Assembly (NCBI GenBank): GCA_964017145.1
Contig: OZ024852.1
Coordinates: 1-64,000 of the forward strand
Length of the DNA stretch: 64,000 bases
Source of the DNA: Agrocybe praecox
Taxonomy: Eukaryota; Basidiomycota; Agaricomycetes; Agaricales; Agrocybaceae
Direction: 5' to 3'
The notes under the pieces were generated by a model. The model had not been told where the DNA came from, searched no databases, and saw nothing but the letters and a program-made list of their open reading frames with translations. The translations under genes and the position numbers were made by a program. This document shows positions 1-32,940 of this stretch, in pieces. Every line of letters starts with the position of its first letter. Position 1 is the first letter of the stretch.

Positions 1-5
1 GTTTC

Positions 6-4794: not shown

Positions 4795-5384
4795 ATGAGA
4801 ACTTTTTCCAAGGCAGAAGTTTACATTTACCACGCGGTACGGTATTTGTAACTATCCGCCATTCAAACTTATCTGATATCGCGATGTAGGATGACCCGGA
4901 CGGCCAACTTTTCGGTCGCGGCCGTCTTAGCTGGAGAGGCACTCTGTCGGACGGGAGGTTTTTCCTCTCAAAGGATAGTAACCTTGCGTTATTGATACCA
5001 AGGCAGAAATATATGGTTTATCGAGCACGACAGCGGCCCCATTGGCGATTCAGCTCCAAAAATTATGGCGATCCGGTGGACGAAAACGAAATAATGATAT
5101 ATCGGCCGCATGGATATCCCGATGACCAATGTTCTGGCCTCAAAAATTTGATTTGCCGGCTACATTTGAGACTAGGTCTCGGGTATGACACAGTGCCTCC
5201 ACGCTACCGGCTTCCCCAGCCCATTGAAGAGAGTCCCGAGGACGAAAGAGATGATTCACGGGGGGATGATACAGAATCAGCCCACTGCACAGAATCTTCT
5301 GACACCGATGAATTGGTATACTCCATTGCCACTCCTTCAGACTCAGACCTTAGCGATACAGATATTTTAAAGAGTAGCTATTAG
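4795..5384 (+). CDS. Small protein with acidic Ser/Asp tail, paralogue A
   Basis: Two exons, 4795-4836 (14 codons) and 4890-5384, separated by a 53-nt GT-AG intron, give 178 residues. The structure was fixed by comparison with the paralogue at 33202-33837 (minus strand), which has the same 14-codon first exon followed by a short intron. Shared blocks are GRL-x-WRGTL-x2-GRFFL, YMVYRARQ-x-PHWRFSS, IYRP-x-GY and RLGL-x3-T(V/I)PPRYR/Q. The last 55 or so residues are very rich in Asp, Glu and Ser. I do not recognise the family. The conserved basic-aromatic core with an acidic tail suggests a soluble interaction module, but no function is claimed. Confidence 0.7.
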
Positions 5385-7737: not shown

Positions 7738-8376
7738 ATGAACATTATGGAGCCAAGGGTATTCCTTTTGTTTTCTCTTATCTCTCCATATGATGATAAG
7801 TTCAATTTCCAGGAAATCTGCTCAGTATTCAATACCCCCTGCAATTCTAGTGGTGCTCCTCTATTCACAAGGCATTCTTCCCATCCCGATAGGGAGCCAA
7901 CGGCGCCTCATTTCTCACTTCATCCAGAAGTCGAACCTCAGCACACCCAAAGAAACGTGACGAACGATGTTCGCCATCCTCAAGGCACCGTTCTCGGGCA
8001 GTCAGCTGAGCTAGCTGAATTGGAACAGCGGTTAAACGATGAAATACGTCAATATACCCATCAAAATGAAGAATTCAGGGAGATTATCAAGAATCTGACG
8101 TGTGAAGTGGAATATTTAGAAGGTGCGGTACGAAGGCAAGCAAAGGAGTTGGCTGAAATTCGCGCCTTATGGAAAGAAGATATCCAGCAAGTACACTTCG
8201 ACCTCGACCAGACAAGCATCGAGCTTGACCATGCCCATATGGAACTCGAAGATGCATTCAGCGAAATTGACGAGGCGGGACAGAGGTTCCAGAAGCTCGC
8301 AAAAATGCACTCGGACCTCCAGCTCAAATTTACGGACGCATTGGACGAACCCAAGAGGCAGCGTCCAGACGCGTAG
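7738..8376 (+). CDS. Coiled-coil protein
   Basis: Exon 1 (7738-7758) and exon 2 (7813-8376) flank a 54-nt GT-AG intron and encode 194 residues. The N-terminal third is Pro/His-rich and probably disordered. From about residue 85 to the end the sequence is strongly heptad-like, with repeated Leu/Ile/Val spaced by Glu, Lys, Arg and Gln (for example AELEQRLNDEIRQ and ELDHAHMELEDAFSEI), and it closes on a short basic KRQR-type tail. This is a typical long coiled coil; no catalytic motif is visible. The short first exon is the least certain part. The family is not recognised. Confidence 0.6.
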   Translation: MNIMEPRVFLLFSLISPYDDKFNFQEICSVFNTPCNSSGAPLFTRHSSHPDREPTAPHFSLHPEVEPQHTQRNVTNDVRHPQGTVLGQSAELAELEQRLNDEIRQYTHQNEEFREIIKNLTCEVEYLEGAVRRQAKELAEIRALWKEDIQQVHFDLDQTSIELDHAHMELEDAFSEIDEAGQRFQKLAKMHSDLQLKFTDALDEPKRQRPDA

Positions 8377-15737: not shown

Positions 15738-16310
15738 GCTATTCCAACAACCACGGTGAGCCTCATACGGCCACACGTTCATCGCTATTTCCTGCTGTGC
15801 TATTTTGCTGTTCCGGTTGTCCTTGCCACAGCAACAACCTCTGTGAGCCTAGCACGGCCACATGTTGATCGCTTTTCCTGCTGCGCTTTCCTGCTGTGCT
15901 TGCTATCCTTGCCACAGCAACAACCTCTGTGAGCCTTGTACGGCCATATGTTGATCGCTATTTCCTGCTATGCTATTCTGCTGTTTCCGGCTATCCTTGC
16001 CACAGCAACAACCTTTGCGAGCCTTAGACGGCCGCATGTTGATCGCTATTCCATGCTATTCTGCTGTCCGGCTATTCGTGCCACAGCAACAACCTCTGTG
16101 AGCCTCGTACGGCCATATGTTGATCGCTATTTCCTGCTATCCCGGCGATCCCTGCCGCTCCCACAACCTCTGTGAGCCTTATACGGCCGCATGTTGTTTG
16201 GTATGCCATTTTGTTCTGCTTCCGGCTATCCTTAACACACCAACAACCTCTGTGAGTCTCGCACGGCCACATGTTGATCACCTTTTGCTATTTCGCTGTT
16301 CCGTCTATCC
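15738..16310 (+). repeat. Minisatellite, about 7 degenerate copies of a 76-88 bp unit
   Basis: The core CGGCCACATGTTGATCGC (with C/T and A/G variants) recurs near 15768, 15855, 15941, 16029, 16109, 16185 and 16263, each preceded by CAACAACCTCTGTGAGCCT and followed by TTTCCTGCT-like sequence. Spacing falls from about 87 to 76 bp through partial deletions. Confidence 0.8.
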
Positions 16311-17056: not shown

Positions 17057-17060
17057 GCGT
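17057..17060. other. Target-site duplication, 5' copy (GCGT)
   Basis: GCGT directly precedes the 5' LTR and recurs at 32937-32940 directly after the 3' LTR. A 4-bp duplication is within the usual 4-6 bp for Ty3/Gypsy integration. Confidence 0.8.
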
Positions 17061-18015
17061 TGATACGACTGGTGTTCGGCTGTGACTGAACTGTAACCAA
17101 GTATCTATCCTACTTAATTTTCGGCATAATAAACACGTTTATTATTAAGTCTACATAAGTACAGAGCGAGGATAGCTACATGTTTGGCTAGGGGAAACCA
17201 TTCTACGAACCCTAGGACGAACCTTACGAATGCTAGAGTTAGTTATAGTAGTTCCTCGGAAATGCGTGGAACGCTTTAACAGCGATGCAGCAGGATCGAA
17301 GGCTCCTAGGATAATATTCAACCATCAGGAATGTAAGCTAGAGCCTGCTGATAATAAGCTTAAACGGCGCTATAGCCACTTATTATTACGCAGTGCGCGA
17401 TGCGTCCACATCTACCTAATATGGAAAACGGAAAGTTCCCACCATATGAAAGTACATGTAAACTACTGCCAACGTTCCTAGGAACGCTAACTCAAGGCGG
17501 TAGGACTGATCCTAGCATTAACAAAGTACATTACTGGTCCCTAGGAACATAGTGGGCACTATGCAAACGACGAGACAAGCACTAGTAATGTCAATTAGGA
17601 CTTGCCGACGTCTGCTCGAGTCAGATTGCTGATAAACCTAAAAGGAGAAGCTCCTAGGAACGCTTACACATGGTCTTAAGACCCTCGGATATGCGCAGTT
17701 ACCTTAAACGGCAGTTGTGGAGCCGAGGATTATAGATCCATACGATACCACGGTACTCCGATGCTTCGGACCCTACGACGTCGATCAATGATCGTCGGCT
17801 AATGCGAATAAGCGCCCTCGGAGCGTCATGCTCGAGTCAGCGACTTGCCCAACCATACGAACCCTTCCGAGGGTATACAAAAACACGCATGGTACCTACT
17901 GGTTGCTTATGCATCGAGTGGAGCTACCTAGCGTTAACCAATAATATTATTTCCTGTATTTTCCGAGCATTTCCGATCCGCTCCAAGTATTCCTGTATTT
18001 TCCGAAACCTAGCAG

Positions 18016-18023
18016 TATATAAG
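18016..18023 (+). promoter_or_regulatory. LTR TATA box
   Basis: TATATAAG is the only strong TATA element in the LTR and would place the RNA start (U3/R border) near 18045-18055. The 3' LTR carries the same box at 32142-32149. All sequence between here and the first gag ATG lacks ATG in every frame. Confidence 0.6.
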
Positions 18024-18105
18024 CAGCCTGTAAATTACCGTAGCACCCCAGATAAACTAGAACCCAGTTGTCCACATTCGAGGAACGCGCATTGAGTTGC
18101 AAACT

Positions 18106-18118
18106 CCTAGGATCGACC
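18106..18118 (+). promoter_or_regulatory. CCTAGG-ATCGACC composite site in the LTR
   Basis: CCTAGGATCGACC lies about 85 bp downstream of the TATA box. Its complement pairs GGTCGA with CCTAGG, the same combination found just upstream of all three antisense genes (27207-27229, 28451-28462, 30881-30899). Confidence 0.4.
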
Positions 18119-18298
18119 TTTGGTACCTAATAAATCTCCGCGAGAGTTGGTTTTATTGAACAGACTACCTACCGTGTCATTTGAGCATCTTGGCGTTAGT
18201 TGAGCGACTTGAGTTAACTTGCAGAGTTCTCGAGGAACCTAAATAAACGTATTGGGATAAAGTTTCCTCTGTCTTAAGTGACATAAAGCTTAATACCC

Positions 18299-18470
18299 GC
18301 CTAAGTGGCAAGAATTGTCTAAGTGACGCCTAAGTGGCCCGTTCCTAGGGATAAGTTCCCTGCCTAAGTGGCAAATTGTCTAAGTGACGCCTAAGTGGCC
18401 CGTTCCAAGGGATAAGTTCCCTGCCTAAGTGGCAAATAGTCTAAGTGACGCCTAAGTGGCCCGTTTAGGA
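18299..18470 (+). repeat. Tandem 61-63 bp repeats in R/U5
   Basis: Units start at 18299, 18362 and 18423 (the last is partial). Each contains GCCTAAGTGGC, GTCTAAGTGACGCCTAAGTG and GATAAGTTCCCT. Single CTAAGTG copies continue to about 18530. The same array is in the 3' LTR at 32425-32596. Its position in the transcribed leader makes an RNA role possible. Confidence 0.75.
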
Positions 18471-18812
18471 TTGAGTCCCCTTTCTAAGTGATTAAAAGAC
18501 TTTGGATTAAGTATCCAGCCTAAGTGGCGAACTACCTACACACTACATCTTGTGGAAACACATTAAATCTACGTTTACACTTTCCGAGGAACTTCGCTTT
18601 GTGCGTAAGCTACTCAAACACTTGTGATCTTCGATCCTAGGAAACGTTCTGTTGCATTAGAGAGCGTATCTTTAGAGAGAAAACATAATCAACGACGCGT
18701 ATCGCGTATCCCTCCCACGAAAGAACTAATCACATTGATTGGGTTTTGTTTCGGAGTATATACAAAGTACAAATCGTACATACACACTCAACCCCGCAGC
18801 AAGCACCTTATC

Positions 18813-18830
18813 TGGAGCCCACCGCGAGGG
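18813..18830 (+). other. Primer binding site
   Basis: TGGAGCCCACCGCGAGGG starts two bases after the 5' LTR. It begins with the TGG expected of a sequence complementary to a tRNA 3' CCA end and implies a tRNA with a 5' strand GCCCACC. I cannot name the tRNA. Confidence 0.65.
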
Positions 18831-18997
18831 AGGGTGTTTTCTTTCACTAAAGTTACGAGTCTCGAAGTGAGAGATTGCATCTTGGTGTCCAGATTAAACG
18901 AGTGAATAAACCTTGACGAGGTTTATTAAAAACAAAAACACAAAAATATTTGGCTGAAGCTCAATTAAATCGGTTCTAAAGTTCCGAGGAAGCTAAA

Positions 18998-20728
18998 GTG
19001 GATAATCAACCGGCAGGACAAGCTAAACGAGTTAGGCAAACGAATAACTCGAGACAAGCAGGTTTCGCGGAATTACCTACTAGGGTTCCTAGGAAAAGAC
19101 AAAGCAGAGCGAGTACGCCCTCCCAAAGAGTTCCAGGAGACTTTCCAGCTGAACCAAGCAGAGAGCGACCTACAACTCCAGAAAATAGGCAGTTAATCAG
19201 ACCTCCGAGTGCGCCTCAGAGACCGGTTAATCGACCTACTATCGATACAAGTTCTCTCGAAGATCCTAGGGAGACAACTTCAGAATCAGATAGCTTAGAA
19301 GTCATCGCTAGTCTATTAGACAAGTTGAATCTAGCTCCTAATTCACCAACACAACCTACTACAAGTAGACCAACTACTCCGGTATCACCAAAGATGGGTT
19401 TCCCTTCTCCTATGAGCAGAGATGCGCCGAAGTTCGATGAAAAGAGTCCCGAGGAACTCCTCCGCTTCATACAGCGAATGGAAGATCTCTGGGTTCAATA
19501 TCCTACTGAAGCTGATACGGATGAAAAGAAAATTATTATGTTAGGGAAATATGCTTCGCCAGTATGCGAGGATGATTGGAAGTCTTTTAACGCATATACC
19601 GGGAAAGACTGGTCAAAGTTTAAAGACGAATTGATCGCTTCGTATCCAGCGGCAATGCGCCTACAAAAAGGATCTCTACACGACCTTGATAAACTATGCT
19701 CGAGATATGTAGACAGGAATAGCTTGATGAAAACAGACCTAGAGGAAATCATGGCGCTGAAACTAAAGTTTACCACTCTATCTCGAAAGCTAGCGGGTCA
19801 AGTGTCTGAAAGGGATCTAATACAACGATTCTTGAGCTGTTTAGAAAGAGGTTTCAGAGACGAAATCTCGCAGGCACTACATGTCATCGACATGGCGCAA
19901 AATAAAGATAGTCTAGGTCTAGGAACCGATTTCAAAGTCGCCAAAGTCATGGAAATTGTTGTAAACATGGCTTTGAGAAGGTCACAATCTATTTTGAACG
20001 AAGGGGATAAAGAAACTCGTTCTGAAAAACCTTCCTCGAGAAGGAGAACGATGGAAACTCAACCCGAGGAAACTCCTGAGTTCTTCCCTAAAATAGAGGA
20101 GACCGTGGCTAGGCTCTCTGATGGCTTAAATCTTCTATTAAAGAAGTCAGAGGTACAGGAAAAGCGAGCAGAAGCTGCGGAGAGGAAGTTTGAAAGCCTA
20201 CAATCTACCCTAGTAAGTTGGAAGCAATCAGCTGTGGCCCCTCAACCAACGCAACCGTCTTCTATGTACCCTAGGCCTTATGATAGGTCTTCCTACAATA
20301 ATTCAAATGGGTTCCAACCCAGTCACTGCTATTATTGTAGAGAGCCTGGACATCGTCTAGCTGACTGTGCGGCAGCAGATAAACATGTAAAGTCGAATTG
20401 GATCAAAAGGAATTCCGAGGGAAAGTATGCGCTAGCGTCTGGACAGCCCATACCTCTCCAAGGATTCAGGTCTATGAGAGAAGCAGTAGAAAACATGTAC
20501 CGTAATAAACCAGGGATTATTCCCAACGCCAAAATCCAAGCCATGCAAGGGTATTATCCTGAGTATGAAGAAGATTGTGAGATGTTCGTTCAATCCGAGG
20601 AAGTTTGCCCTCCCGCGGAAGACATCTCTAGGCGCTTAGACGACTTAGTAAGAGAGCATGGAAAAGAAGCTCTCGAACGAGTACTCTTTGGCGAAGGTGC
20701 GGTAGATGCTTTCGAAAATTTTCCTTAA
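18998..20728 (+). CDS. gag: Gag polyprotein
   Basis: The frame is open from 18980 and runs to TAA at 20726-20728. The first 132 codons after the GTG at 18998 contain no Met; the first ATG of any frame is codon 133 (19394), in an A-at-minus-3, G-at-plus-4 context. The GTG also has A at -3 and G at +4, so a 576-residue form from GTG and a 444-residue form from ATG are both possible. The N-terminal extension is Pro/Arg/Ser-rich and basic. A helical capsid-like region follows (residues about 140-340) with a W-V-Q-Y block, then a coiled segment. A CCHC zinc knuckle (C444, C447, H452, C457) sits before the C-terminal 120 residues. This is the structural protein that packages element RNA. It ends at a -1 slippery site. 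Confidence 0.9.
   Translation: MDNQPAGQAKRVRQTNNSRQAGFAELPTRVPRKRQSRASTPSQRVPGDFPAEPSRERPTTPENRQLIRPPSAPQRPVNRPTIDTSSLEDPRETTSESDSLEVIASLLDKLNLAPNSPTQPTTSRPTTPVSPKMGFPSPMSRDAPKFDEKSPEELLRFIQRMEDLWVQYPTEADTDEKKIIMLGKYASPVCEDDWKSFNAYTGKDWSKFKDELIASYPAAMRLQKGSLHDLDKLCSRYVDRNSLMKTDLEEIMALKLKFTTLSRKLAGQVSERDLIQRFLSCLERGFRDEISQALHVIDMAQNKDSLGLGTDFKVAKVMEIVVNMALRRSQSILNEGDKETRSEKPSSRRRTMETQPEETPEFFPKIEETVARLSDGLNLLLKKSEVQEKRAEAAERKFESLQSTLVSWKQSAVAPQPTQPSSMYPRPYDRSSYNNSNGFQPSHCYYCREPGHRLADCAAADKHVKSNWIKRNSEGKYALASGQPIPLQGFRSMREAVENMYRNKPGIIPNAKIQAMQGYYPEYEEDCEMFVQSEEVCPPAEDISRRLDDLVREHGKEALERVLFGEGAVDAFENFP
20716..20722 (+). promoter_or_regulatory. -1 frameshift heptamer, gag to protease
   Basis: A AAT TTT in the gag frame fits the X XXY YYZ rule exactly and lies one codon before the gag stop. 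A -1 slip enters the protease frame, which is open from here through to 21927. I did not establish a downstream pseudoknot. Confidence 0.75.
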
Positions 20729-21927
20729 GTTCAAGGATAGGACCACCTGCAGCTGGGGCTAAGAGAATAAGTCCGAGAACAGCTACGAACCTTGAGAACA
20801 ATAACAGCAGGAGTAAAGGGATGTTTAGTAAAGAAAAGAAAAGTGTCAGATTCGATAAAGAACCAGAAGTTCCTAGAGAAGAGACACGACCAGAAAATAG
20901 TAAAAAGAGCGAGACCAAAAGACCGTTGTTACCTTACATAGATGTACCGCCTATGTCTAGAGTATCGAGGCCTACGAATACTTCCTCGGACGAGAAGAAA
21001 GAGGAAAGACCCGTGCCTGCGTACCGTACTAGGGCACCTGTGGAAGATAGCACGGACGGAAATAAAATGGTGGACGACATATTGGATATGTCCATATCAG
21101 TACCATTAAAACACTTAGTGGGAAGTGCGCCACACATACGAGAGGCGTTAAGAAAGAATTTTACGAAAACTAGACAAGCAGTGCTTATGGAGGAGATCCT
21201 AGAAGATGATCATGAAACAGAGATGTGTTCCAAGGGACACGAGGAACTTCCCCTGTATCATGAAATCGAGACAGGCTTAGCTGTAGAACAGTTGCCGGTT
21301 TCTCAATTCCTCCTAGCAAAAGATTGTCCAAGCTTGAGTAACCTTCCTGCAGACGCCATTGTAGCCAGTGACCCTTATTATCAGTTTGCGCTCGAACATA
21401 ACGGAGCCGTACCCAAGGAACCTTATAGGGACCGTGCTAGGAACGCTGAAAGTCTTCGGGAGATTCAAGTGCAAATTAATAATGTAGGATTCGAAAATGC
21501 TATCTTAGACAGTGGATCTCAGATTGTATCTATGTCACAACAAGTCGCTGTAGAGATGGGATTATCCTGGAACCCTTCCCTTAGCATAAATATGCAAAGT
21601 GCCAACAACCAGTTAGAACGGACTCTAGGAATCGCAGAGAACGTAAAAATAATGGTTGGAGGGATAGTGGTCTATCTACAGATACATATCGTCAGGAACC
21701 CGCCTTACAGGGTGCTCCTAGGAAAGCCTTTTGACACGGTTACGACGAGTGTAGTAAAGACTATGACGGACGGATATGTGGAGGTTCTCTTGACTGATCC
21801 TAACTCCAAGAGGCGAGTAGTAATTCCTACTTATGCTCGAGGAAAGGGACCGATTGAGCTGCAAAAAGAAAAGTTTGACGAGAAAGTGGTGGAACTACCG
21901 CCTAAGTCTCCAGACGACCCTTTTTAA
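20722..21927 (+). CDS. Aspartic protease domain of the polyprotein
   Basis: Reached from gag by a -1 shift at 20716-20722; the frame stays open for 33 codons upstream of its first ATG (20821), which argues for expression as a Gag fusion rather than from that ATG. The catalytic signature is A-I-L-D-S-G-S (Asp at nt 21508-21510) followed by a hydrophobic stretch; farther on, near nt 21710, V-L-L-G-K-P matches the hydrophobic-G segment that closes retropepsin folds. The first 200 residues are charged and probably linker. It cleaves the polyprotein. The frame ends at TAA 21925-21927 directly after a second slippery heptamer. Confidence 0.85.
   Translation, partial: SLSSRIGPPAAGAKRISPRTATNLENNNSRSKGMFSKEKKSVRFDKEPEVPREETRPENSKKSETKRPLLPYIDVPPMSRVSRPTNTSSDEKKEERPVPAYRTRAPVEDSTDGNKMVDDILDMSISVPLKHLVGSAPHIREALRKNFTKTRQAVLMEEILEDDHETEMCSKGHEELPLYHEIETGLAVEQLPVSQFLLAKDCPSLSNLPADAIVASDPYYQFALEHNGAVPKEPYRDRARNAESLREIQVQINNVGFENAILDSGSQIVSMSQQVAVEMGLSWNPSLSINMQSANNQLERTLGIAENVKIMVGGIVVYLQIHIVRNPPYRVLLGKPFDTVTTSVVKTMTDGYVEVLLTDPNSKRRVVIPTYARGKGPIELQKEKFDEKVVELPPKSPDDPF
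21918..21924 (+). promoter_or_regulatory. -1 frameshift heptamer, protease to pol
   Basis: C CCT TTT in the protease frame is an exact X XXY YYZ heptamer and abuts the TAA stop. A -1 slip enters the pol frame, which is open from here to 25742. Confidence 0.75.
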
Positions 21928-24900
21928 ATTGCCTTAATGAACTGGAAGACCAGGGAGAGGCGGCAGTTGTTTTTGAATATGATCATAAAACCGGAGAAAT
22001 AAAAATAGAATCGTATACGACACAGGTGGATAAGAAAGCATTTTCCAAGGATGGCCTAAGAAATGTTTTCTTGTCAAGAGCAGTAGATAGCGAGCATGTA
22101 GAGACTGCGGACAAAAGAAAGTTCCAGATTTATCTACAAGATATTAAACCAGAGGTTAAAGAGAATGAACCTTCCGCTTCAGTTTTCCTAGGAAAAAAGT
22201 ACAAACCGGTAGACAAGAAAGTCCGACCGGTTTACACTGAACTTCCAGAAAACTTGAGAATCCATCGAAATATTAAAGGGGATCCATTGCAGGATATGCC
22301 ACCCTTAAGTGTTAATCCACCAGACTTCCAACCAACAGGAAGGTACACCGAGGAACGCATGAAAGCCTTTGACGCTAAGCACGAAGGGGACTTTCTGTGG
22401 TCCGAGGAACGGAAATCAATACACGAGCTACTTATGAACCAGAACGAAGCTTTCGCTTGGGATGATTCGGAAAGAGGAAAATTCAAGGAGGAGTTCTTTC
22501 CACCGGTCATTATGCCTACGGTAGAACACACTCCTTGGGTGTTTAAAAACATTCCAATTTCACCAGGATTGTACGAACCATTGTGCGAGTTAATCCGATC
22601 TAAGCTAAAAAGTGGAGTAATGGAACCTTCATGCTCGTCCTATCGCTCGAGATGGTTTGCTGTATTAAAGAAAGATGGGAAAAGTCTTCGAATAGTCCAA
22701 AGCTTGGAACCTTTGAACGCTGTTACTATAGCACACTCAGGTGTTCCACCAGCTGCGGAAGAGCTCGCTATTCACTTCTGTGGACGTGCTTGTGTTGGAA
22801 TGGGAGATTTGTACGTTGGATATGATGAGAGAACTTTAGCTGAAAGCTCTAGGGATCTTACCACTTTCCAATCACCCTTTGGAGCGCTTAGGTTAACCAC
22901 CTTACCAATGGGTTGGACAAACTCAGTACCTATATTCCATGACGATGTAACCCATATCTTACAGGATGAAATTCCTGAGTACACAAGTCCATATATCGAC
23001 GACGTAGGTTTCCGAGGACCGGCCTCTCGTTACCAAAATGAGGATGGGACCTATGAAGTGTTACCCGAGAACCCTGGCATTAGGAAATTCGTTTGGGAAC
23101 ACTTACAAAATGTAAATCGAATTATACAACGGATGAAATACTCTGGAGGAACTTTCTCCGGGTATAAAACCGTCATATGCGCAGATGCTGTAGAAGTAGT
23201 AGGACATTTATGTTCCTCGGATGGACGTAAGCCTACTGAGAGTCGAGTTAAGGTTATCCTCGATTGGGGACCTTTGAAAAATGTGTCGGATGTGCGCTCC
23301 TTCTATGGAACTTGCGGAGTATTGAGAGCATATATTCCTAGGTTTGCAGATCGTGCAAAACACATCCACAAGCTAATGCGAGCAGGAGTACCTTTCGAAT
23401 GGGGTCCTGATCAAGAAAAGAGTATGCAGTTAATGAAGGAAGGGGTCCGAGATGCTCAGTGCTTAAAGCCTATAGACTATCATGGTCAGGGAGATATAGT
23501 ACTAGCAGTGGACACTTCTTATATTGCAGCAGGCTGGTACATCTACCAAGAGGATAGTCAAGATCCTAGGAAACGCTACTATGTTACCTTTGGATCTCAG
23601 TCCTTGGAAGAACACGAAGCTAGATACTCTCAGCCTAAACGAGAACTCTACGGACTCAAATTAGCACTTGAGAAAAATAGAAAACATTTAATTGGAGTCC
23701 GAAAGTTGATTGTCGAGACGGATGCTAAGTATATCGCTGGAATGCTTCGCAATCCCGATCTTATGCCTAATGCTACAATCAATCGCTGGATCGATCAAAT
23801 TGGGATGTATCATTTTACTCTAAGGCATGTACCAGGAAAGACATTCGGGCCTGACGGACTCTCTAGGAGGCCAAGGCAGCCCAATGATCCACCCTTAAGG
23901 GAGGCTGGTTCCGAGGAAATGGAGCCAGAAGCGCCCATCAAAATAGAGTTTGCGGATCCTAATGGGCCTATGCCGTTGGAAACCGAGACCTTCAAAGATA
24001 AGATAGATTCCCGAGGAGGATATCTACAGGAGGTTTCTGAACCATTACCATTAGAATCTTTCATTAGTCTAATAGAAAAAGACGATGAGTACGAGGGCAT
24101 TGCTAGAGACGTCGAAGACTTTTCAGAAGAGCTTGCTAAAGCAGATGAGTTTCGTATGTCGGAAAAAGCTTTCCTAGAAGAACACATCAGTCGAAATAAA
24201 GAGGCTCTAGGAGAAGAGAGATGTGCTTATGTGCAACAGCTAGTATCTACACTTATGTTACCCGAGGAAAACGAATTTAAGAAAATACGATATCCCGAGG
24301 AACATAGGTCGGACACAGCTAAAGCACAAGACCACAAGTTAGATTGGGTGATGGAATGGCACAAGGATCGATCCTTCAGACCGATAGGGATGTCCGAGAA
24401 ACAGTATAAACGTTTTATAACATTAGCAAAACGATTCATACTATTCGAGGAACGTTTGTATCGAAGGGGAGATGGAACCAAGCACCGATTAGTGGTCTCC
24501 AAAGATAAAAGGATGTACATGTTGACGGCTGCGCATGATCATGTGGGGCACCGAGGATTCTATGCGACTAATCAGTTGCTAGTGGAACGATTTTGGTGGC
24601 CAGAAATGGAGAAAGATGTGAACTGGTTCGTTAAGACATGTCATAATTGTCAGGAAAGACAAAAGACATTAATAAGAATAAAACCATCTATTACACATAC
24701 CCCTTCTATTTTTCAAAGTATGCATGCGGACTGTATCAACATGACTCCTCCATCGAACGGTTGCTCGTATATTGTCCATGGAAGGTGCGCTCTATCTTCT
24801 TATATGGAAGGGCGACCCTTAAAAAAGGAAAATGGCAAGTCAATCGGTCAATGGATCTGGGAAGACATCATTTGTAGATGGGCTTGTATGGTGGAGTTCA

Positions 24901-25742
24901 TAACAGACAATGGGGGACCATTTTTAGCTGCTGCACGATGGCTCGAGGAAAAATATGGGATTAAGGGAATTCGTATTTCACCCTATAACTCGAAGGCCAA
25001 TGGCGCTATAGAAAGACCACATTGGGATGTCAGACAAATGCTGTACAAAATGCTAGGAAAAGACGATGTGAACAAGTGGTTCTGGTTCTTTCCTTACATT
25101 AAGTGGGCAGATAGAGTAACGGTCAGGAAACGTCTAGGATGTTCACCTTTCTTCATGGTAACAGGGGCATCACCAATTCTACCTTTAGACGCCCAAGAAG
25201 CTACTTGGTTGGTTAAACCTCCTGAGCGAATTTTATCAGATGAAGAGTTAATTGGATTCCGAGCAAAAGCGCTCGCCAAACATAAACTTCATGTGGATGA
25301 GATGCGCAAAAGGGTAGACCAAGATAAATACGAGCGTCTATTGAAATATGAGCAAGACCACAAAGCTGTCATCAAGGACTACGTTTTTAAACCAGGAGAT
25401 TTGGTTTTGGTACGGAATACTACCATAGAAAAATCCTTGGATAAGAAAATGAAACCTAGGTACCTAGGACCGATGATTGTCATACGACGAACTCGGGGAG
25501 GGTCCTATATAGTCGCTGAAATGAATGGAGCGGTCTTACAAAATAAAATTGGAGCCTTCAGAGTAGTACCATACTATGCTAGAGAACATCTAGAACTACC
25601 TGAGTCGATTCAGACTCTGATAGATATGCCAACTTCGGCACTAGATTTGATTGAGAATGGACCCGAGGATGTGTACGACCCGATACTAGGAGAAGTGACT
25701 CTCCGAGGATCGACTTCAGAAAACGAAAATGAAAATGAGTAA
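21924..25742 (+). CDS. pol: Pol: reverse transcriptase, RNase H and integrase
   Basis: No ATG lies near the start of this frame; it is entered by a -1 slip at 21918-21924 and is open to TAA at 25740-25742 (about 1272 codons). The reverse transcriptase has motif A as G-M-G-D-L-Y-V-G-Y-D, the block L-P-M-G-W-T-N-S and the catalytic Y-I-D-D at 22992-23003. RNase H follows, with A-V-D-T-S near 23510, an A-R-Y-S-Q-P-K-R-E-L-Y-G-L-K block and V-E-T-D-A near 23715. A linker of about 170 residues precedes the integrase, which has an H-x3-H...C-x2-C zinc module (24534-24655), a D-x-D-like M-H-A-D-C, the F-I-T-D-N-G-G-P-F block and a final Glu in G-A-I-E-R-P. The C-terminus has a GPY/F-like K-P-R-Y-L-G-P motif and no chromodomain. 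Domain order defines Ty3/Gypsy. All key residues are present. Confidence 0.95.
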   Translation, partial: LNCLNELEDQGEAAVVFEYDHKTGEIKIESYTTQVDKKAFSKDGLRNVFLSRAVDSEHVETADKRKFQIYLQDIKPEVKENEPSASVFLGKKYKPVDKKVRPVYTELPENLRIHRNIKGDPLQDMPPLSVNPPDFQPTGRYTEERMKAFDAKHEGDFLWSEERKSIHELLMNQNEAFAWDDSERGKFKEEFFPPVIMPTVEHTPWVFKNIPISPGLYEPLCELIRSKLKSGVMEPSCSSYRSRWFAVLKKDGKSLRIVQSLEPLNAVTIAHSGVPPAAEELAIHFCGRACVGMGDLYVGYDERTLAESSRDLTTFQSPFGALRLTTLPMGWTNSVPIFHDDVTHILQDEIPEYTSPYIDDVGFRGPASRYQNEDGTYEVLPENPGIRKFVWEHLQNVNRIIQRMKYSGGTFSGYKTVICADAVEVVGHLCSSDGRKPTESRVKVILDWGPLKNVSDVRSFYGTCGVLRAYIPRFADRAKHIHKLMRAGVPFEWGPDQEKSMQLMKEGVRDAQCLKPIDYHGQGDIVLAVDTSYIAAGWYIYQEDSQDPRKRYYVTFGSQSLEEHEARYSQPKRELYGLKLALEKNRKHLIGVRKLIVETDAKYIAGMLRNPDLMPNATINRWIDQIGMYHFTLRHVPGKTFGPDGLSRRPRQPNDPPLREAGSEEMEPEAPIKIEFADPNGPMPLETETFKDKIDSRGGYLQEVSEPLPLESFISLIEKDDEYEGIARDVEDFSEELAKADEFRMSEKAFLEEHISRNKEALGEERCAYVQQLVSTLMLPEENEFKKIRYPEEHRSDTAKAQDHKLDWVMEWHKDRSFRPIGMSEKQYKRFITLAKRFILFEERLYRRGDGTKHRLVVSKDKRMYMLTAAHDHVGHRGFYATNQLLVERFWWPEMEKDVNWFVKTCHNCQERQKTLIRIKPSITHTPSIFQSMHADCINMTPPSNGCSYIVHGRCALSSYMEGRPLKKENGKSIGQWIWEDIICRWACMVEFITDNGGPFLAAARWLEEKYGIKGIRISPYNSKANGAIERPHWDVRQMLYKMLGKDDVNKWFWFFPYIKWADRVTVRKRLGCSPFFMVTGASPILPLDAQEATWLVKPPERILSDEELIGFRAKALAKHKLHVDEMRKRVDQDKYERLLKYEQDHKAVIKDYVFKPGDLVLVRNTTIEKSLDKKMKPRYLGPMIVIRRTRGGSYIVAEMNGAVLQNKIGAFRVVPYYAREHLELPESIQTLIDMPTSALDLIENGPEDVYDPILGEVTLRGSTSENENENE

Positions 25743-25800
25743 AAAGACAAATATATTATGAGTCTACTCGAATATAGCTTGTACCCTAGGAAGGATAAGA

Positions 25801-27161
25801 CTAGTCCTTTTTAGCGTCAACCTGAGCTTTCTCGAGGGAGACGATTTGGCGCTGAATGAATTGACGCTGCCCAACAGACTGCCAGATCTGGTAGTCAACA
25901 TCCTGAGCACTGTCCCGGAGACACCTAAGGTGACGCTCAAGTGCAGCGACATCGCGGTTTTGAGGGAACTTCGCAGTGATGCTCTCAGCAATGTTCATAG
26001 CGACGGCTGTAGATTGAGGCGAGAAGGTGTTTGGAAGAATAGTGTTCTCGAGGGTAACTAAAGCAAGAAAATTAGTATCCGAGGAACAAAACACATAAGA
26101 GAAAATCAAAACGTACTGTCCACAGTATCCTTGGTTTTGCTCTTCTTGACCGACTTGGACGCTTTCTTGTAAGATCCAGAGTCTGTAGCAATTCCAGGAA
26201 CGTCCTCGAACTCGAGCATGCGAGTTTCAGCACGTTTCTCGGCCTTGGAAGGTTTCGAGGAAGAGGAAGCCTCCGGCTGGTACGAGTAATGAATCAGTCC
26301 CAATTTCCTAGGAAGAGAAATAAGGTACTTGCCTTGGGAGAGAGGACCTCTCTTTTAGATCCTTTACCTTTGCGGCTCTGCGACGCGGGGGGAGCGCTGA
26401 CAATAGAAGCCACCTCCACCATGTCGTCGTCGACTTGCATAGCCTGCACCGCGTGAATAAGGTTCATAAGGAAAGGGGATAGGGTTTTCATTACCTCGTC
26501 AGAAGTCAGCTCAAAATTAGAGGTAGTAGAAGATACGACCTCTACCTCTTCCGAGTCAACCTTCTCTTTATACAAACGACCAGAGCGTTGTTTGTTCTAA
26601 CGAAAAGCGTCAGTCAAAACGATCCGAGGAAGTAAAAGGAATGGACATACCGCGGTGTGTGCTCCATTATCTGCAACCTCAGGGTCCGCAGTTGTGGCTT
26701 TTTCGACAGTTTCGGACGAAGTCTTCTTCTTCAGATTCATGAATGGAGGACCGCCGGGGCAGTAGAGACCAGTAGAAGTGCGCTTGGCATAGATGAACTT
26801 GATGAGAAGGCTAACGGACTGGGCCTCCTTGGAGAACCTCCTGGAATACTCGCTGCCTAAGCGTACGAGTGCTGCAAGAGAATCTCGGAGATTGAACACC
26901 AAGTCAAACGCCTCTTGTCCAGCGAGCCAGACGTTGTCTGACTGTTCGAACCAGGGAGCCTGAGCGATGTCGAGGGAAGCGTGTTAAGCAGAGAAGAGCG
27001 GTCCTAGGAAGGTCACTTACAAGTTTCTCGCAGATGAGAGCCAAGTGAGCGGAGGCTGACTCGCCATTTTTCTCCGAGGAAATGGTTTCGGCTTTGGCAA
27101 GGTGGTATTGCACACCTACCGCAGCTTTTACCTCGAGGACGCTGGGAGAAAGGTCGGGCAT
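25801..27161 (-). CDS. Antisense gene C of the retrotransposon, 376 aa
   Basis: Five exons on the minus strand join in phase: 27161-27021, 26959-26651, 26596-26333, 26276-26117 and 26057-25801. Introns are 61, 54, 56 and 59 nt. The third is a GC-AG intron with the textbook donor AAG|GCAAGT; no GT donor would keep the frame. The protein has a helical N half (block V-W-L-A-G-Q-E-A-F-D-L-V-F-N-L), a Ser/Lys-rich middle with two basic nuclear-signal-like runs (KGKGSKR; KKASKSVKKSKTK) and a helical C-terminal segment (block L-E-R-H-L-R-C-L-R-D). No enzyme motif is seen and I do not recognise the family. A TATAAAGG box lies 70 nt upstream. The stop is 58 bp beyond the pol stop, so pol and gene C converge tail to tail. 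Confidence 0.75.
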
Positions 27162-27206
27162 GCAAGAAAAAGCGTGTACCGGGAAGATAGCACCTTGGTG
27201 TTGAAT

Positions 27207-27238
27207 CCTAGGACCTCGAAAATCGACCCGCCTTTATA
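27207..27238 (-). promoter_or_regulatory. Gene C promoter: TATA box and GGGTCGATTTTC/CCTAGG element
   Basis: On the minus strand TATAAAGG (27238-27231) is followed by GGGTCGATTTTC and CCTAGG (27229-27207), ending 45 nt upstream of the gene C ATG. The 12-base GGGTCGATTTTC is repeated exactly upstream of gene A. Confidence 0.55.
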
Positions 27239-27590
27239 GTGCTGTGGTAAAATTTAACAGAGTCGTCATTCCGAGGAACCATGTGGCCCCGCTCGGGAGG
27301 ACATGTGCGCGAGGAGACACAACAATGAAAATTTTACTCGGACTACGAGAGCGGAAGTGCAAATTGTATTGAGGAGCGAGTTGGAGCGTAATGGCTGCAT
27401 ATGGGCAACGGTGGATCGATCAAAAAAGGGGTACAGTACAAATACTACTCTACTGATCGAATGAAAACTTCACCATTCCGGTGAAGCGCATTTGGAACCC
27501 TAGGAATGAAGCCCGCTCTGGAAAAACTCTTCTAAGATATTTGGCCTTGGTGCCACATGCGAAACTTGAAAATGCGCTGAAGTTTGCTGG
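27239..27590. other. Spacer between antisense genes B and C
   Basis: No reading frame of note. It carries one CCTAGG, one CCGAGGAAC and is the likely upstream control region of gene C. Confidence 0.4.
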
Positions 27591-28440
27591 TTAGTGCGAG
27601 TGGAGCGTTGGATGCGAGGAACGATTCAAGGCGATCCCCCCACGAACCGCCGCGCGACTGAAACCCAGTTGCATTAATAATTTAATCCGAGGACAGTTCT
27701 TGCGATCATAACGTACCATTACAGTACGCTCGGAACACCTAGGAAGTGTGTGGTCGAATAAAACACGACATATCCAGGCGTTCATCGGCGAGGCAGTGAA
27801 ATTCATGTACCATATGACCACCCAGTGAAAGCTAATGTCAATGAATATGTGTCCAAGCTCTGTGCCGTACTTGATGTCGTCGGGATGGAATTGCATCTAA
27901 GAGGAGTGAGTTCTCCTCGCATACAACATAAGGACGACGAGTTGGTCTTACCAAGGCAGCGGTTACCTTGAGTATGAGCTCCAGGGGAGGCAAGTTACGC
28001 TCCTTTTGGGGTTCCTCGGTACCGTTGGCAGGATTGGAAAGTGCTTCGTCCAGGCGTTGTTTGGCGCTGACAAGTGCGAACCATCGTTGATCAGTTCCTA
28101 GGAACGTTACTCGAGCAGGATTAGCCTGGATAGGCGTCTCTAGCAAATCGTCAAGTATGTCCAGATACAACATAGCCTCAGTTTGATACTGGTCCATGGT
28201 ATCTGACAATGCTTGGGGGTTGAAGATGACTCCTAGGGGTGGGTAGACGGACATAGCCAAGGAGCCGTCGAGGTTCAGCCTTTCGTTTGTCGCACCTTTT
28301 ATGGGCCCCTGGAAGATCGCGCTGGATACTTTTGTTGCACGCGGCCACACGGAATTAGGCCATCATTTTTTTTCCAATCTGGGAAGATGATTAGCCGTTT
28401 TTGGTTGTGCTGCTAAGCGAAACACGGGCATCTCCGGCAT
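27591..28440 (-). pseudogene. Antisense gene B of the retrotransposon, with in-frame stop
   Basis: The minus-strand frame starts at ATG 28440-28438, meets TGA at 28365-28363 after 25 codons just past an A8 run, then stays open to a GT donor at 27951. A 55-nt intron (27951-27897) leads in phase to exon 2 (27896-27591). The protein-like sequence continues straight through the TGA, so either the stop is a recent lesion or translation starts at the in-frame ATG 28254, giving 202 residues. Visible blocks are D-Q-Y-Q-T-E-A-M-L-Y-L-D-I-L-D-D-L-L and H-P-D-D-I-K-Y-G-T. No known domain. Read-through of the TGA or a slip on the A8 run are alternatives. Confidence 0.55.
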
Positions 28441-28450
28441 ATCAGATTTT

Positions 28451-28462
28451 CCTAGGTCGACC
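28451..28462 (-). promoter_or_regulatory. GGTCGA-CCTAGG site upstream of gene B
   Basis: On the minus strand GGTCGACCTAGG lies 10 nt upstream of the gene B ATG, an overlapping form of the composite seen near genes A and C and in the LTR. Confidence 0.35.
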
Positions 28463-28477
28463 GGGAGGTCGCTTCTT

Positions 28478-28491
28478 TAAGTTGGGGGGAG
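28478..28491 (+). other. Internal copy of the polypurine tract
   Basis: TAAGTTGGGGGGAG matches the terminal polypurine tract at 31172-31185 over all 14 bases but is not followed by an LTR. It lies between gene B and gene A. Confidence 0.6.
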
Positions 28492-28784
28492 CCGGCCTAC
28501 CAGCCAACAGAGATATCCTAGCAACTTGGAAGAGCCGTCTTCTTTTAAGTTTCTCAAGGGCTTATAAGTTTTCTTGAAATACTTAAGGGAGATTCTTAGA
28601 AATGTTGTGCAAAGTAAACGAACAAGAAAAAAGATTATAAATTTCGTTGGGGCAAAGAACCCGCAAAAAGGGATATACGTTGTACAAAAATATAAAGAAC
28701 CCCGACCTACGAAAACGCTACTCTAGAAAATGAATAAGACATAGTGTTCTAATTTAATAGAACCGAAAAGATTTTCTAGGAGAG
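28492..28784. other. Spacer between antisense genes A and B
   Basis: AT-rich and without a gene; it follows the stop codon of gene A on the minus strand and probably holds its 3' end. Confidence 0.4.
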
Positions 28785-30816
28785 TTAAGCAGGGGGGGCG
28801 CTTGCGTCATCATTCGCAACGACTGGCTCCATGACCACGTCCTCTTCCGCCCGAGGAACCTCTATAACCAAGTCATCCTGATCCGCAGGCAACCCGGCGG
28901 TGCTAGCAGAGGTATTGACGATGGTAGAAGGTGCGTCAACGGGGATGTGGAAGAAGGGGAGAGACGAGTCGAGCAGGGTGCGAAGACGAGGTGGAAAGCG
29001 AGCCTTGATCGCATCAGGCATGCGGCGAAGAAGAAGTTCGAGCGTTTGGATACGGTCGTCCGCGTCGGAAGGAGGAAAGTTCAGTGCAGAGAGTTGACGG
29101 CAGAACGCCTGAAAGACGTGCACGTCCTCGAAAGCGGAGCGGATGATAGCGCCGGGACCTTCTGGGAAAAGAACGACCGTGTCACGAATGAACTGCTGCA
29201 TTTGGATCTCGAGATCGATGGATATGGCCTGCTGGGACCTAAAGAGGTCCAAGAGGCGACGTTCCTGTTCGCGAGATTCGCGGGCACGCTCGACAAGGTC
29301 CTTGAGATCTAAAAAGAAGACGTTTAGTAATAGATTTTTGAGAAAGACAAAGAAATATGGGACTTACGATGAATGGAAAAAGTACCGCGCTCGTAGGCAG
29401 CGTTGCGGTGAGCGAGTCGGACTGTGTCCTCCGCCTTGTGATCACAGCACGTAATGTGGCGGGTGTCACAAGTACCGCAGAGTTGTCCGAAGACGGCAGG
29501 GGTACATTCAAGGAGTTGACCAACGCACACGCTGCATTCCGTTGCATGCTATGAAAAGAAACGTTTAGCATAAAGGAAAAAGATTGCGGAAGCAGAGACT
29601 TACAGGTTCGACGTGCGGAGTGAACCCTAGGACGTCGTCCCATCGAATGACGGACGACAGGGGAGCAGAATAGGCGGAAAGGTTGGCGGCACGCTGCTCA
29701 GCGGCTGCCTTCTTGCCCGACTAAGAAATAAAAAGTCAGCTCATAAGGAGCAAGGACTGGAAAAATAAAATAAAATAGAAAACATACCTTATGAGTCGTA
29801 TGGGGCTCAGTCTTGACGAAGTCCTGAGTAGCCTTGATACTACCTCGTTTGGGACGCTTCGCGGAGGGGTCGTCGTCGGCCACTTCCGAGGAAGTGTGGA
29901 CGCGTTTGTTGCGAAGAGTGCCAATACGAGAAGGTGGTGGAAGCAAGACTTCCGAGACGAGCTTTCGAGTAGAAGAGCGAGTGGAATGAACGGGCGTGAG
30001 AGTCGCGATAGAAGGGAGAAGAGAGCCACTAACTTCGACACCATCGGAGCTGGGAGCAGGGACAGGCGTCGCGCCGTCCTCCGATACCCCCTCGAGCTCG
30101 TCGATGTCCGGCTGGACTAGAGGTGCGTCTTCGTCCTCGGAACTGGAATCGACGACGTGCGTTGCAGCTTTCGAAGAGGATGGACGCTCGGGCTTAGGGC
30201 GCGGGTTTTTGGACGAGGTTTTCTTCGCACCCTTCGCGTTCTTCGTGTTCTTCGTGTTCTTCGCGTTCTTCGCGTTCCTTGTTGCAATCTGCTTTTGAAT
30301 CTTGGCATACTGGTTCAAGAATTCATCGGCGTCGGATCCAACGTCGCACTGGTTCCATAATTCGGCAGTCGTGGCCAGAGAGGGGGTACCGTTAACGTAG
30401 AATTCGTCGAAAACCTCCACTACTGGTTCCGATGGAGGACAAAACATGAGACAAAGAGTCGCCACAGTAGCCCATCGAAGGCGAAACCGGCATAGGAGCT
30501 TATGAGCTTCGGGACGAGTCCAAGAACCGCTCTAAGGATGAGGGCGGTGTAAGGACATGGTAACATAAGAAAAAGAATGGAAGGGACGTACGATGTGGGG
30601 TTGCATGGCCTCTAGCACAGGGACCGCATACCCGGCGATGGTCAAAGCCCTTTGTTTTGAACGGACCGAGGCAAGGAAAGGCTTCACAAGGTCGTTCAGA
30701 GTATCAAACTCGGATTTGAGAAGCAAGTAGGCCTTCTCGGCGTCGAGAGAAGACAAGGAGTCAACGTCGTACTCGATAAAGCCGGCCGGGTACGAGGCCT
30801 TACCAAAGGTAGACAT
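28785..30816 (-). CDS. Antisense gene A: Zn2Cys6-spaced cysteine cluster protein, 596 aa
   Basis: Five minus-strand exons join in phase: 30816-30592, 30531-29788, 29720-29604, 29548-29368 and 29308-28785, with GT-AG introns of 60, 67, 55 and 59 nt. The N-terminal 75 residues are helical. The long exon 2 has Lys/Asn/Ala repeats (A-K-N-T-K-N-T-K-N), an acidic Ser patch (SSSEDED) and a nuclear-signal-like KRPKRGS. Exon 4 encodes C367, C370, C377, C386, C389 and C396: C-x2-C-x6-C-x8-C-x2-C-x6-C, exactly the spacing of the fungal GAL4-type Zn2Cys6 cluster. The usual basic residues in the first x6 loop are missing (VGQLLE), so DNA binding is uncertain. A charged helix rich in R, E, Q and L follows, as in dimerising zinc-cluster proteins, and the tail is acidic. 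I infer a nuclear, possibly regulatory, protein; it is not part of standard Gypsy elements. Confidence 0.75.
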
Positions 30817-30872
30817 AGGGATAAAGGGAAGGAAAGAAAAGGGGGACTTAGCGAATAAACCCTACCAGACCT

Positions 30873-30899
30873 CCTTATATCCTAGGGGAAAATCGACCC
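30873..30899 (-). promoter_or_regulatory. Gene A promoter: GGGTCGATTTTC/CCTAGG element and TATA box
   Basis: On the minus strand GGGTCGATTTTC and CCTAGG (30899-30881) are followed by ATATAAGG (30880-30873), about 57 nt upstream of the gene A ATG. Confidence 0.55.
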
Positions 30900-31171
30900 T
30901 GAACCAGAAGCGATTACGACGTGACTCGTATCAAACTTCTCAAGAGTTTATTTCGTTATTCGCAAAGGCCTTAAGGCGCGGAGAACTCGAAACTAAAAAT
31001 AGCATGAGCTTGTAATTAATAAAGAAAAGCTTACAAGTAATATGGCTAAGTCCGATAGTAAAAGACCTGTCAAAGAGAAAGATAAGACGAGAGTTTTTAT
31101 CTGATAGGCAAGCAAAAACCAGAAAACGGCAGAGGCCTAACTCGAAGTATGACTGAGGACAGTCCGAATTA
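30900..31171. other. Spacer between gene A promoter and polypurine tract
   Basis: Noncoding; nothing further recognised. Confidence 0.4.
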
Positions 31172-31186
31172 TAAGTTGGGGGGAGA
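31172..31186 (+). other. Terminal polypurine tract
   Basis: TAAGTTGGGGGGAGA directly abuts the 3' LTR, the expected position of the plus-strand primer of an LTR element. Confidence 0.85.
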
Positions 31187-32936
31187 TGATACGACTGGTG
31201 TTCGGCTGTGACTGAACTGTAACCAAGTATCTATCCTACTTAATTTTCGGCATAATAAACACGTTTATTATTAAGTCTACATAAGTACAGAGCGAGGATA
31301 GCTACATGTTTGGCTAGGGGAAACCATTCTACGAACCCTAGGACGAACCTTACGAATGCTAGAGTTAGTTATAGTAGTTCCTCGGAAATGCGTGGAACGC
31401 TTTAACAGCGATGCAGCAGGATCGAAGGCTCCTAGGATAATATTCAACCATCAGGAATGTAAGCTAGAGCCTGCTGATAATAAGCTTAAACGGCGCTATA
31501 GCCACTTATTATTACGCAGTGCGCGATGCGTCCACATCTACCTAATATGGAAAACGGAAAGTTCCCACCATATGAAAGTACATGTAAACTACTGCCAACG
31601 TTCCTAGGAACGCTAACTCAAGGCGGTAGGACTGATCCTAGCATTAACAAAGTACATTACTGGTCCCTAGGAACATAGTGGGCACTATGCAAACGACGAG
31701 ACAAGCACTAGTAATGTCAATTAGGACTTGCCGACGTCTGCTCGAGTCAGATTGCTGATAAACCTAAAAGGAGAAGCTCCTAGGAACGCTTACACATGGT
31801 CTTAAGACCCTCGGATATGCGCAGTTACCTTAAACGGCAGTTGTGGAGCCGAGGATTATAGATCCATACGATACCACGGTACTCCGATGCTTCGGACCCT
31901 ACGACGTCGATCAATGATCGTCGGCTAATGCGAATAAGCGCCCTCGGAGCGTCATGCTCGAGTCAGCGACTTGCCCAACCATACGAACCCTTCCGAGGGT
32001 ATACAAAAACACGCATGGTACCTACTGGTTGCTTATGCATCGAGTGGAGCTACCTAGCGTTAACCAATAATATTATTTCCTGTATTTTCCGAGCATTTCC
32101 GATCCGCTCCAAGTATTCCTGTATTTTCCGAAACCTAGCAGTATATAAGCAGCCTGTAAATTACCGTAGCACCCCAGATAAACTAGAACCCAGTTGTCCA
32201 CATTCGAGGAACGCGCATTGAGTTGCAAACTCCTAGGATCGACCTTTGGTACCTAATAAATCTCCGCGAGAGTTGGTTTTATTGAACAGACTACCTACCG
32301 TGTCATTTGAGCATCTTGGCGTTAGTTGAGCGACTTGAGTTAACTTGCAGAGTTCTCGAGGAACCTAAATAAACGTATTGGGATAAAGTTTCCTCTGTCT
32401 TAAGTGACATAAAGCTTAATACCCGCCTAAGTGGCAAGAATTGTCTAAGTGACGCCTAAGTGGCCCGTTCCTAGGGATAAGTTCCCTGCCTAAGTGGCAA
32501 ATTGTCTAAGTGACGCCTAAGTGGCCCGTTCCAAGGGATAAGTTCCCTGCCTAAGTGGCAAATAGTCTAAGTGACGCCTAAGTGGCCCGTTTAGGATTGA
32601 GTCCCCTTTCTAAGTGATTAAAAGACTTTGGATTAAGTATCCAGCCTAAGTGGCGAACTACCTACACACTACATCTTGTGGAAACACATTAAATCTACGT
32701 TTACACTTTCCGAGGAACTTCGCTTTGTGCGTAAGCTACTCAAACACTTGTGATCTTCGATCCTAGGAAACGTTCTGTTGCATTAGAGAGCGTATCTTTA
32801 GAGAGAAAACATAATCAACGACGCGTATCGCGTATCCCTCCCACGAAAGAACTAATCACATTGATTGGGTTTTGTTTCGGAGTATATACAAAGTACAAAT
32901 CGTACATACACACTCAACCCCGCAGCAAGCACCTTA
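31187..32936 (+). repeat. 3' long terminal repeat
   Basis: 1750 bp; every part I compared with the 5' LTR is identical, including all short frames, the TATA box and the tandem array. Confidence 0.95.
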
Positions 32937-32940
32937 GCGT
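32937..32940. other. Target-site duplication, 3' copy (GCGT)
   Basis: Matches 17057-17060 and marks the end of the element. Confidence 0.8.

Follow-up and report, generated by a model that had tools for sequence, protein, structure and literature searches.

The DNA analysed here, a 64,000-nucleotide stretch of Agrocybe praecox (contig OZ024852.1, positions 1 to 64,000; hereafter the window), contains a complete Ty3/Gypsy long terminal repeat (LTR) retrotransposon in which three minus-strand genes, A, B, and C, lie between pol and the 3' LTR. The Ty3/Gypsy family is recently mobile, and the antisense genes move with the element. As read from substitution patterns, gene C is shown to be under strong purifying selection and to have been exchanged between element lineages by recombination. 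This selected, exchanged, and apparently intron-bearing antisense gene is our firmest result; its function we infer. On balance, we favor the explanation that three spliced minus-strand genes are standard equipment of this Gypsy family, and that C is probably a nuclear nucleic-acid-binding regulator.

Copies of the element and its antisense genes

A survey of the 59-Mb genome with a 2-kb pol probe, the counts of which are lower bounds, gave 17 matches. Eleven of them, the window included, span the entire probe or miss just 2 bases of it, at 96-100% identity, and the remaining six are short, with 66-75% identity. The 5' and 3' parts were examined for all ten copies besides the window, and the antisense region is present in 11 of 11 copies, split by an insertion in one. 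A one-off capture is thus rejected, at least 11 copies of the element being present in this genome. Nine non-window copies have two LTRs each, with 0-2 differences of about 1750 within a pair, and the LTR pair of the window element is 100% identical across 1,750 bp. The eleventh copy (L018, L028, and L038) is interrupted by other DNA, roughly 30 kb long. Its 5' LTR was compared without the first part, and the LTR parts covered show 5 differences in 1597 sites. Each of the 10 copies with both flanks readable, again including the window, has its own 4-bp target duplication. Paired LTRs with a target duplication, along with near-identical LTR pairs indicating recent transposition, are as expected of Ty3/Gypsy elements, and the earlier view that the genes belong to a mobile element is borne out by the antisense regions and the separate target duplications. 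All 10 readable duplications follow the pattern NCGN, and GCGC opens the 3' flank in the eleventh copy; integration therefore seems to prefer CG. Two copies have smaller insertions: one of about 0.9 kb lies between A and B in L016, and one of about 0.5 kb interrupts pol in L017.

The exon models of A, B, and C were rebuilt from splice signals and reading frames, and splicing is thus predicted. The interval 25801-30816, from the stop codon of A (25801-25803) to the start codon of C, had been described as holding minus-strand genes with nine phase-consistent introns, and the rebuilt models (5, 2, and 5 exons) likewise have nine introns. The introns of A are 61, 54, 56, and 59 nt long and those of C 60, 67, 55, and 59 nt; seven of these eight introns (54-67 nt) are GT-AG, and the third of A is GC-AG. 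The reading frame of A is open in all 11 copies, window included, that of C in all 10 copies mapped (window and L009-L017), and that of B in 8 of 8 (window and L009-L015). The C gene of the split copy was matched by tblastn only and is outside the 10, and L016, L017, and L018/L038 are outside the count for B. Two of the three genes had been called intact five-exon genes, and the depletion of amino acid changes across copies of A and C, together with the predominance of synonymous change between C alleles (both given below), shows these models to be more than chance. Donor sites are altered in L010 (C intron 1, GTCCGT) and L016 (A intron 4, GTACAT), and A intron lengths are altered in L012, L013, and L018, which means that some copies may splice imperfectly. 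The genes are readable in the copies examined, and one of them, C, is present in two copies in a very different version; they thus appear to be functional accessory genes and not there by accident.

TATA-like boxes precede the start codons, by 77 nt in A, 49 nt in B, and 64 nt in C. This is in keeping with the claim that each gene has a TATA box of its own, with the reservation that the box of B (CATAAA) is weak. A promoter block of GGGTCGATTTTC followed by CCTAGGAT is common to A and C, and the C block GGGTCGA..CCTAGGATA, with CCTAGGA, is kept even in the diverged C allele described below.

The second allele of gene C

Outside C, the copies L014 and L015 are 94-100% identical to the window per 400 bp, mostly 98-100%, with the lowest values in the A-B spacer, whereas within C, from about 28930 to 30970, identity is 53-93% per 60 bp. 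Both C alleles are open; their coding lengths are 42 nt apart, and each retains the four introns, at altered lengths, the second-allele intron 2 having a weak donor (GTCTTT). Between the alleles, synonymous divergence (dS) is 0.94 and nonsynonymous divergence (dN) is 0.126, a ratio of 0.13. The ratio is as low as 0.017 for residues 363-423, which include a six-cysteine region, with 0.024 and 0.04 to either side. From residue 521 onward the alleles are much closer (dS 0.20), and this drop indicates one breakpoint within exon 5. Between L014 and L015, 7 of 1833 nt in C are different, and the target duplications are not the same, indicating that the second allele has itself transposed. No donor of this allele was found in this genome beyond L014 and L015. 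Furthermore, L038 shows another exchange: its identity to the window is 57-88% between about 28150 and 28930, an interval that takes in part of B, the adjoining spacer, and the final part of C, and 93-100% across the remainder of C.

Variation within the first allele is of the same kind. Eight copies of C have 16 nonsynonymous and 18 synonymous variant codons (sites 1351:437), and 11 copies of A have 16 and 13, respectively (sites 868:260); in both genes amino acid changes are fewer than the site ratio of about 3:1 predicts. Open frames across copies, together with dN/dS, reject the idea of pseudogene cargo. The dS of 0.94, the ratio of 0.13, and the kept introns indicate that C is old, selected, and exchanged between elements.

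Introns in the sense orientation are expected to be lost at each cycle of a retroelement. It had been proposed that antisense orientation explains the survival of the introns, which would persist because the packaged RNA is of the opposite strand. Retention of the four C introns in both alleles at a dS of about 1 fits this proposal, with splicing itself being a prediction, and supports the view that these introns have outlived many rounds of retrotransposition.

Element structure and relatives

The coordinates of the element and its parts are collected in Table 1. Pol has the order reverse transcriptase (RT), ribonuclease H (RNaseH), and integrase of Ty3/Gypsy elements, with the RNaseH domains at residues 499-633 and the integrase zinc domain at residues 865-920 of the open reading frame (ORF). 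The window pol ORF gave no direct Pfam match to RT (PF00078) or to catalytic integrase (PF00665), whereas some of the 120 pol relatives listed carry precomputed matches to both. No chromodomain, the mark of the chromovirus branch, was found at the integrase end at E 1 (Pfam). DUF4100, found in the protease ORF, occurs in basidiomycetes, and this domain and the short introns point to a host of that group. The 14-mer complementary to the primer binding site occurs 39 times in the genome, in some cases near other Gypsy families as judged by coordinates, and a primer tRNA looked for in three small stretches gave no match. In the 5' LTR, a TATA-like box was spotted by eye at about 18022. Repeats of CTAAGTGGC/CTAAGTGAC units lie 3' of the TATA-like box, at about 18272-18530 and 32398-32656 of the window, and a tandem array with units of about 80 bp (15788-16282) is located upstream of the element.

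Table 1. Positions of the retrotransposon and its features in the window
Feature	Position	Strand	Details
Complete LTR retrotransposon	17061-32936	+	paired LTRs and 4-bp target duplication
Target site duplication GCGT, left / right copy	17057-17060 / 32937-32940		
5' LTR, 1,750 bp	17061-18810	+	TGATAC...CACCTTA; repeat family D3
Dispersed motif CC[GT]AGGA	17061-31186	43 sites +, 24 sites -	one LTR and internal region, 14.1 kb
Probable primer binding site	18813-18828	+	TGGAGCCCACCGCGAG; 2 nt past 5' LTR
gag ORF, 582 aa	18980-20728	+	CCHC zinc knuckle; zf-CCHC E 0.0012, 19.3 bits, slightly below the cut-off of 20.8
Protease ORF, 431 aa	20632-21927	+	PF13975, PF13352 (DUF4100), PF13650, all above cut-off
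pol ORF, 1278 aa	21906-25742	+	PF17919, PF17917, PF17921; RT by homology, RNaseH, integrase zinc domain
Gene A, 376 aa, 5 predicted exons	25801-27161	-	27161-27021, 26959-26651, 26596-26333, 26276-26117, 26057-25801
A core promoter (putative)	27206-27238	-	TATAAA, then GGGTCGATTTTC and CCTAGGA
Gene B, 202 aa, 2 predicted exons	27591-28254	-	28254-27952, 27896-27591; single 55-nt intron
Gene C, 596 aa, 5 predicted exons	28785-30816	-	30816-30592, 30531-29788, 29720-29604, 29548-29368, 29308-28785
C core promoter (putative)	30868-30900	-	GGGTCGATTTTC, then CCTAGGATATAAG
Polypurine tract	31178-31186	+	GGGGGGAGA; abuts 3' LTR directly
3' LTR, 1,750 bp	31187-32936	+	

More distant relatives of the element are also present in this genome. 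L029 has LTR parts with 94-97% identity, the second ending after about 280 bp, and a C relic antisense beside the LTR; the 654 bp upstream of its C start, a stretch that includes LTR sequence, match the window at 92%. This element piece (1-4834), in which no gag, protease, or pol match was found, also has a plus-strand ORF (1081-1851). L030 contains gag-protease at 73% nucleotide identity, and its 9.5 kb gave no pol match; a C fragment, antisense and adjoining the LTR, recurs 6,149 bp on. Its positions 325-9501, gag-protease between two identical repeats (at least 3028 bp, LTR and C fragment), look like a 6149-bp tandem unit. At L035 (1647-2924), gene A and its promoter are present as a 1.3-kb fragment of 93% identity, with no other part of the element in the 5 kb examined. 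Two C-like genes, L031 (755-3895) and L032 (1446-4161), are in a duplicated stretch of 85-90% identity. L031 is adjoined by an LTR of the window's family (5 kb examined), and no gag, protease, or pol match (E below 0.1) was found within about 8 kb on either side of L032. Their exon dN/dS ratios are 0.17-0.49, excluding the exon 2/3 ratio, which is unreliable with pieces out of frame. These two paralogs outside detectable Gypsy coding regions are what remains of the possibility that the genes are absent from other copies and reside only at ordinary loci, the rest being contradicted by the copies described above.

In a protein search, pol found 1152 relatives among 7160 candidates, the best having 72% identity (120 listed), and relatives of the element are therefore present in that database. 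Viral contigs gave no pol match, and for C exon 5 they gave 86 pattern matches and no relative.

The probable role of protein C

Exon 4 of C encodes six cysteines with the spacing C-x2-C-x6-C-x8-C-x2-C-x7-C, invariant in 4 of 4 aligned homologs down to 30% identity. Zn2Cys6 (Gal4-type) clusters have the spacing C-x2-C-x6-C-x5-12-C-x2-C-x6-8-C, and that of C fits this pattern. One of four aligned C sequences has a weak match to Zn_clus (PF00172, E 0.13). The exon 5 model has a helix of about 45 residues (2-46) at low confidence, with a block predicted local distance difference test (pLDDT) score of 68-86 in the first 40. A basic KRPKR stretch in exon 2, noted by eye, could be a nuclear signal. 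From these features, we infer that C may act as a dimer in the nucleus and bind nucleic acid; no functional clue was found for either A or B. In the mechanism that we propose, A, B, and C would be transcribed from their own promoters, with that of C just inside the 3' LTR and that of A between B and A. C, as a nuclear protein with the KRPKR stretch and a Zn2Cys6-like cluster followed by a helix, would bind nucleic acid from the family to which it belongs, with the LTR and the antisense promoters as probable sites of action. Such a role would be analogous to that proposed for the plant TRP28 and gene23 proteins and to that of retroviral HBZ.

A possible target is the dispersed motif CC[GT]AGGA, which is spread through the LTR, gag, pol, and the antisense region in about 17-fold excess. 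The dispersed motif is real: 500 dinucleotide shuffles gave means of 2.59 (plus) and 1.48 (minus) with maxima of 8 and 7, although CCTAGG-type sites are near-palindromic and often counted on both strands. The CCGAGGA form is biased to the sense strand, with 23 versus 5 sites overall and 7 versus 2 within the antisense region. Against synonymous codon shuffles, the plus-strand motif is in excess in pol (13 vs 1.26) and gag (5 vs 0.45), and the protease ORF has no excess (1 vs 0.28 expected, reached in 272 of 1000 shuffles). In a split-sample test, where the top five words picked in gag-protease were tested in pol and vice versa with 500 shuffles, CGAGGAA and CCGAGGA held both ways in the window (0/500 shuffles reaching the count), and the others held partly or not. 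The motif is also frequent in L030 gag-protease, where 2 of 8 plus and 2 of 8 minus places are common with the window. Genome-wide, TTCCKAGGAAC occurs 290 and 292 times per strand, compared to 31 and 27 for the reversed control, with many LTR copies among the matches listed. As a guess, CCTAGGA, which is present in the LTR and in the A and C core promoters, is a candidate binding site of C.

The reading of C as a regulator has to be weighed against several observations that speak against it. The six-cysteine pattern, kept in L032, is broken in the C-like gene of L031, which is outside the alignment and lacks two of the six cysteines. The window C exon 4 does not match Zn_clus even at E 10, and a Pfam search at E 1 found no domain in any of the three antisense proteins. 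Gal4-type clusters usually carry basic residues, and these are mostly absent from the C cluster. The structure models are weak, with a mean pLDDT of 45.7 for exon 4 (uninformative) and 59.5 for exon 5. L029 contains a decayed antisense C with 45% identity, shortened and with stops in two exons. Among candidates scored from 5.8 billion proteins, no relative was found at E 0.001 for spliced C (7992 candidates) or spliced A (5363 candidates), a null result which is weak because relatives could have been missed through a length filter and gene calling that ignores introns. Finally, the one copy read of the C7 family (L041-L043, L041 on the minus strand), a compact element with RT about 60% identical and LTRs of about 800 bp, has a sense-biased dispersed motif of its own, TCTACAT/ATCTAC[AC]. 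In the split-sample test, TCTACAT held both ways in L041 and three more words held one way; L039 gave only CTTCGAC, one way (13/500), which is suggestive at best, and no word carried over in L040. The C7 copy has no antisense genes, since its 3' LTR lies within 376 bp of the pol ORF. CCKAGGA, therefore, need not be read by C, and the notion that the motif is simply a C binding site is reduced to one option. A bolder extension, which we hold improbable, is that family-specific, sense-oriented short tags (CCKAGGA here, TCTACAT in another family), spread across LTRs and coding sequence, mark the RNA or DNA of Gypsy families in this genome, with C as an exchangeable reader and self-recognition deciding expression or packaging.

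The sense bias of CCGAGGA, which extends into the antisense region, and the motif excess over codon-shuffled gag and pol, as expected of an RNA address, are what an RNA-acting C would explain. Like Rev, or like the CERV protein of Cer1, which provides a precedent (PMC10309623), C may bind the sense genomic RNA, perhaps by way of the sense-biased motif, and aid unspliced export or packaging. However, the C7 copy has a comparable motif without an antisense gene, so that Gag or a shared factor could be the reader; CCTAGGA is near-palindromic and present in promoters, as expected of DNA sites; and the protease ORF shows no plus-strand excess. We regard this possibility as a minority one, albeit the most credible of those differing from a regulator. 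Less probable still is that the proteins shield the element from host silencing, as VANC does, or from rival elements. Shielding would explain the exchange of C alleles, and in its favor are the allele replacement largely confined to C and the further exchange in L038; the dense family-specific motifs also resemble the motif density and same-orientation arrays of VANDAL21 (PMC5735166). In contrast, VANC21 motifs are described there as mainly non-coding and often in tandem repeats, whereas those here run through coding regions, and dN/dS indicates purifying rather than diversifying selection.

Two further explanations have very little probability in our judgment. Antisense transcription itself, through double-stranded RNA or promoter interference, may be the function, with the proteins incidental, and a possible role of this kind has been proposed for plant elements (PMC7264820); yet it would conserve neither the protein relative to synonymous sites nor intron positions. 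Passive cargo, that is, host genes captured once and carried without use, is equally hard to sustain and is already disfavored by sequence comparison. Although L031 and L032, lying outside detectable Gypsy coding regions, suggest that C may have a host past, a dN/dS of 0.13 at a dS of 0.94, frames open in all copies read, and a C relic in a diverged family are opposed to it.

The family can be compared with known systems. VANDAL is a DNA transposon, and HBZ of human T-cell leukemia virus type 1 (HTLV-1) is a spliced bZIP protein that regulates transcription. The arrangement had been thought undescribed, which is not supported as to its kind, since antisense genes are known in plant Gypsy elements and one, brtn, in a fungus. 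Plant Retand (Ty3/Gypsy) elements are described as having antisense TRP28 ORFs, predicted to be DNA-binding, with no relatives outside transposable elements and with defective derivatives (PMC11963269). The element here shares with Retand a long region between pol and the 3' LTR with minus-strand accessory genes, antisense ORFs included, a likeness of layout without any claim of membership; it differs in the fungal host, the nine predicted introns in three genes, and the allele exchange, introns being unmentioned in the main text of PMC11963269. Maize Grande, compared by description, likewise has an antisense accessory gene, gene23, which is driven by a promoter of its own and whose product is nuclear (PMC7264820), but it has one such gene versus three here. 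Boty-like Gypsy elements of Botrytis cinerea contain the antisense gene brtn (Zhao 2011, cited in PMC7264820, PMC8365987, and PMC4227169). These too are compared by description: they are fungal Gypsy elements with an antisense gene, but the gene is a single one, and their gag-pol has a CHROMO domain (PMC4227169), which is absent here. HBZ, as an analogy only, is encoded antisense near the 3' LTR, and its nuclear protein is central to the virus life cycle (PMC11963269); HTLV-1 is, however, a virus, with the antisense promoter within the 3' LTR (PMC7264820). The VANDAL/VANC system of Arabidopsis shares a short family-specific motif at high density and in one orientation, but there the motif is mainly non-coding, in tandem repeats (PMC5735166), whereas here gag and pol contain it as well, and a dispersed motif is also present in a family that lacks accessory genes. 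Several multi-intron antisense genes in one element, or allele exchange centered on one, were not found in the openly licensed literature, most subscription papers being outside the search.

In summary, little is known of fungal antisense accessory genes beyond brtn, and the element described here indicates that genes of the ordinary spliced type, read from the opposite strand, can be borne by a retroelement and evolve within it. The dispersed family-specific motif is a peculiarity that can be tested separately. If tag reading were true, the C system would decide which copies are expressed or packaged. The presence of recent copies and of two natural C alleles makes the role of antisense accessory genes testable.

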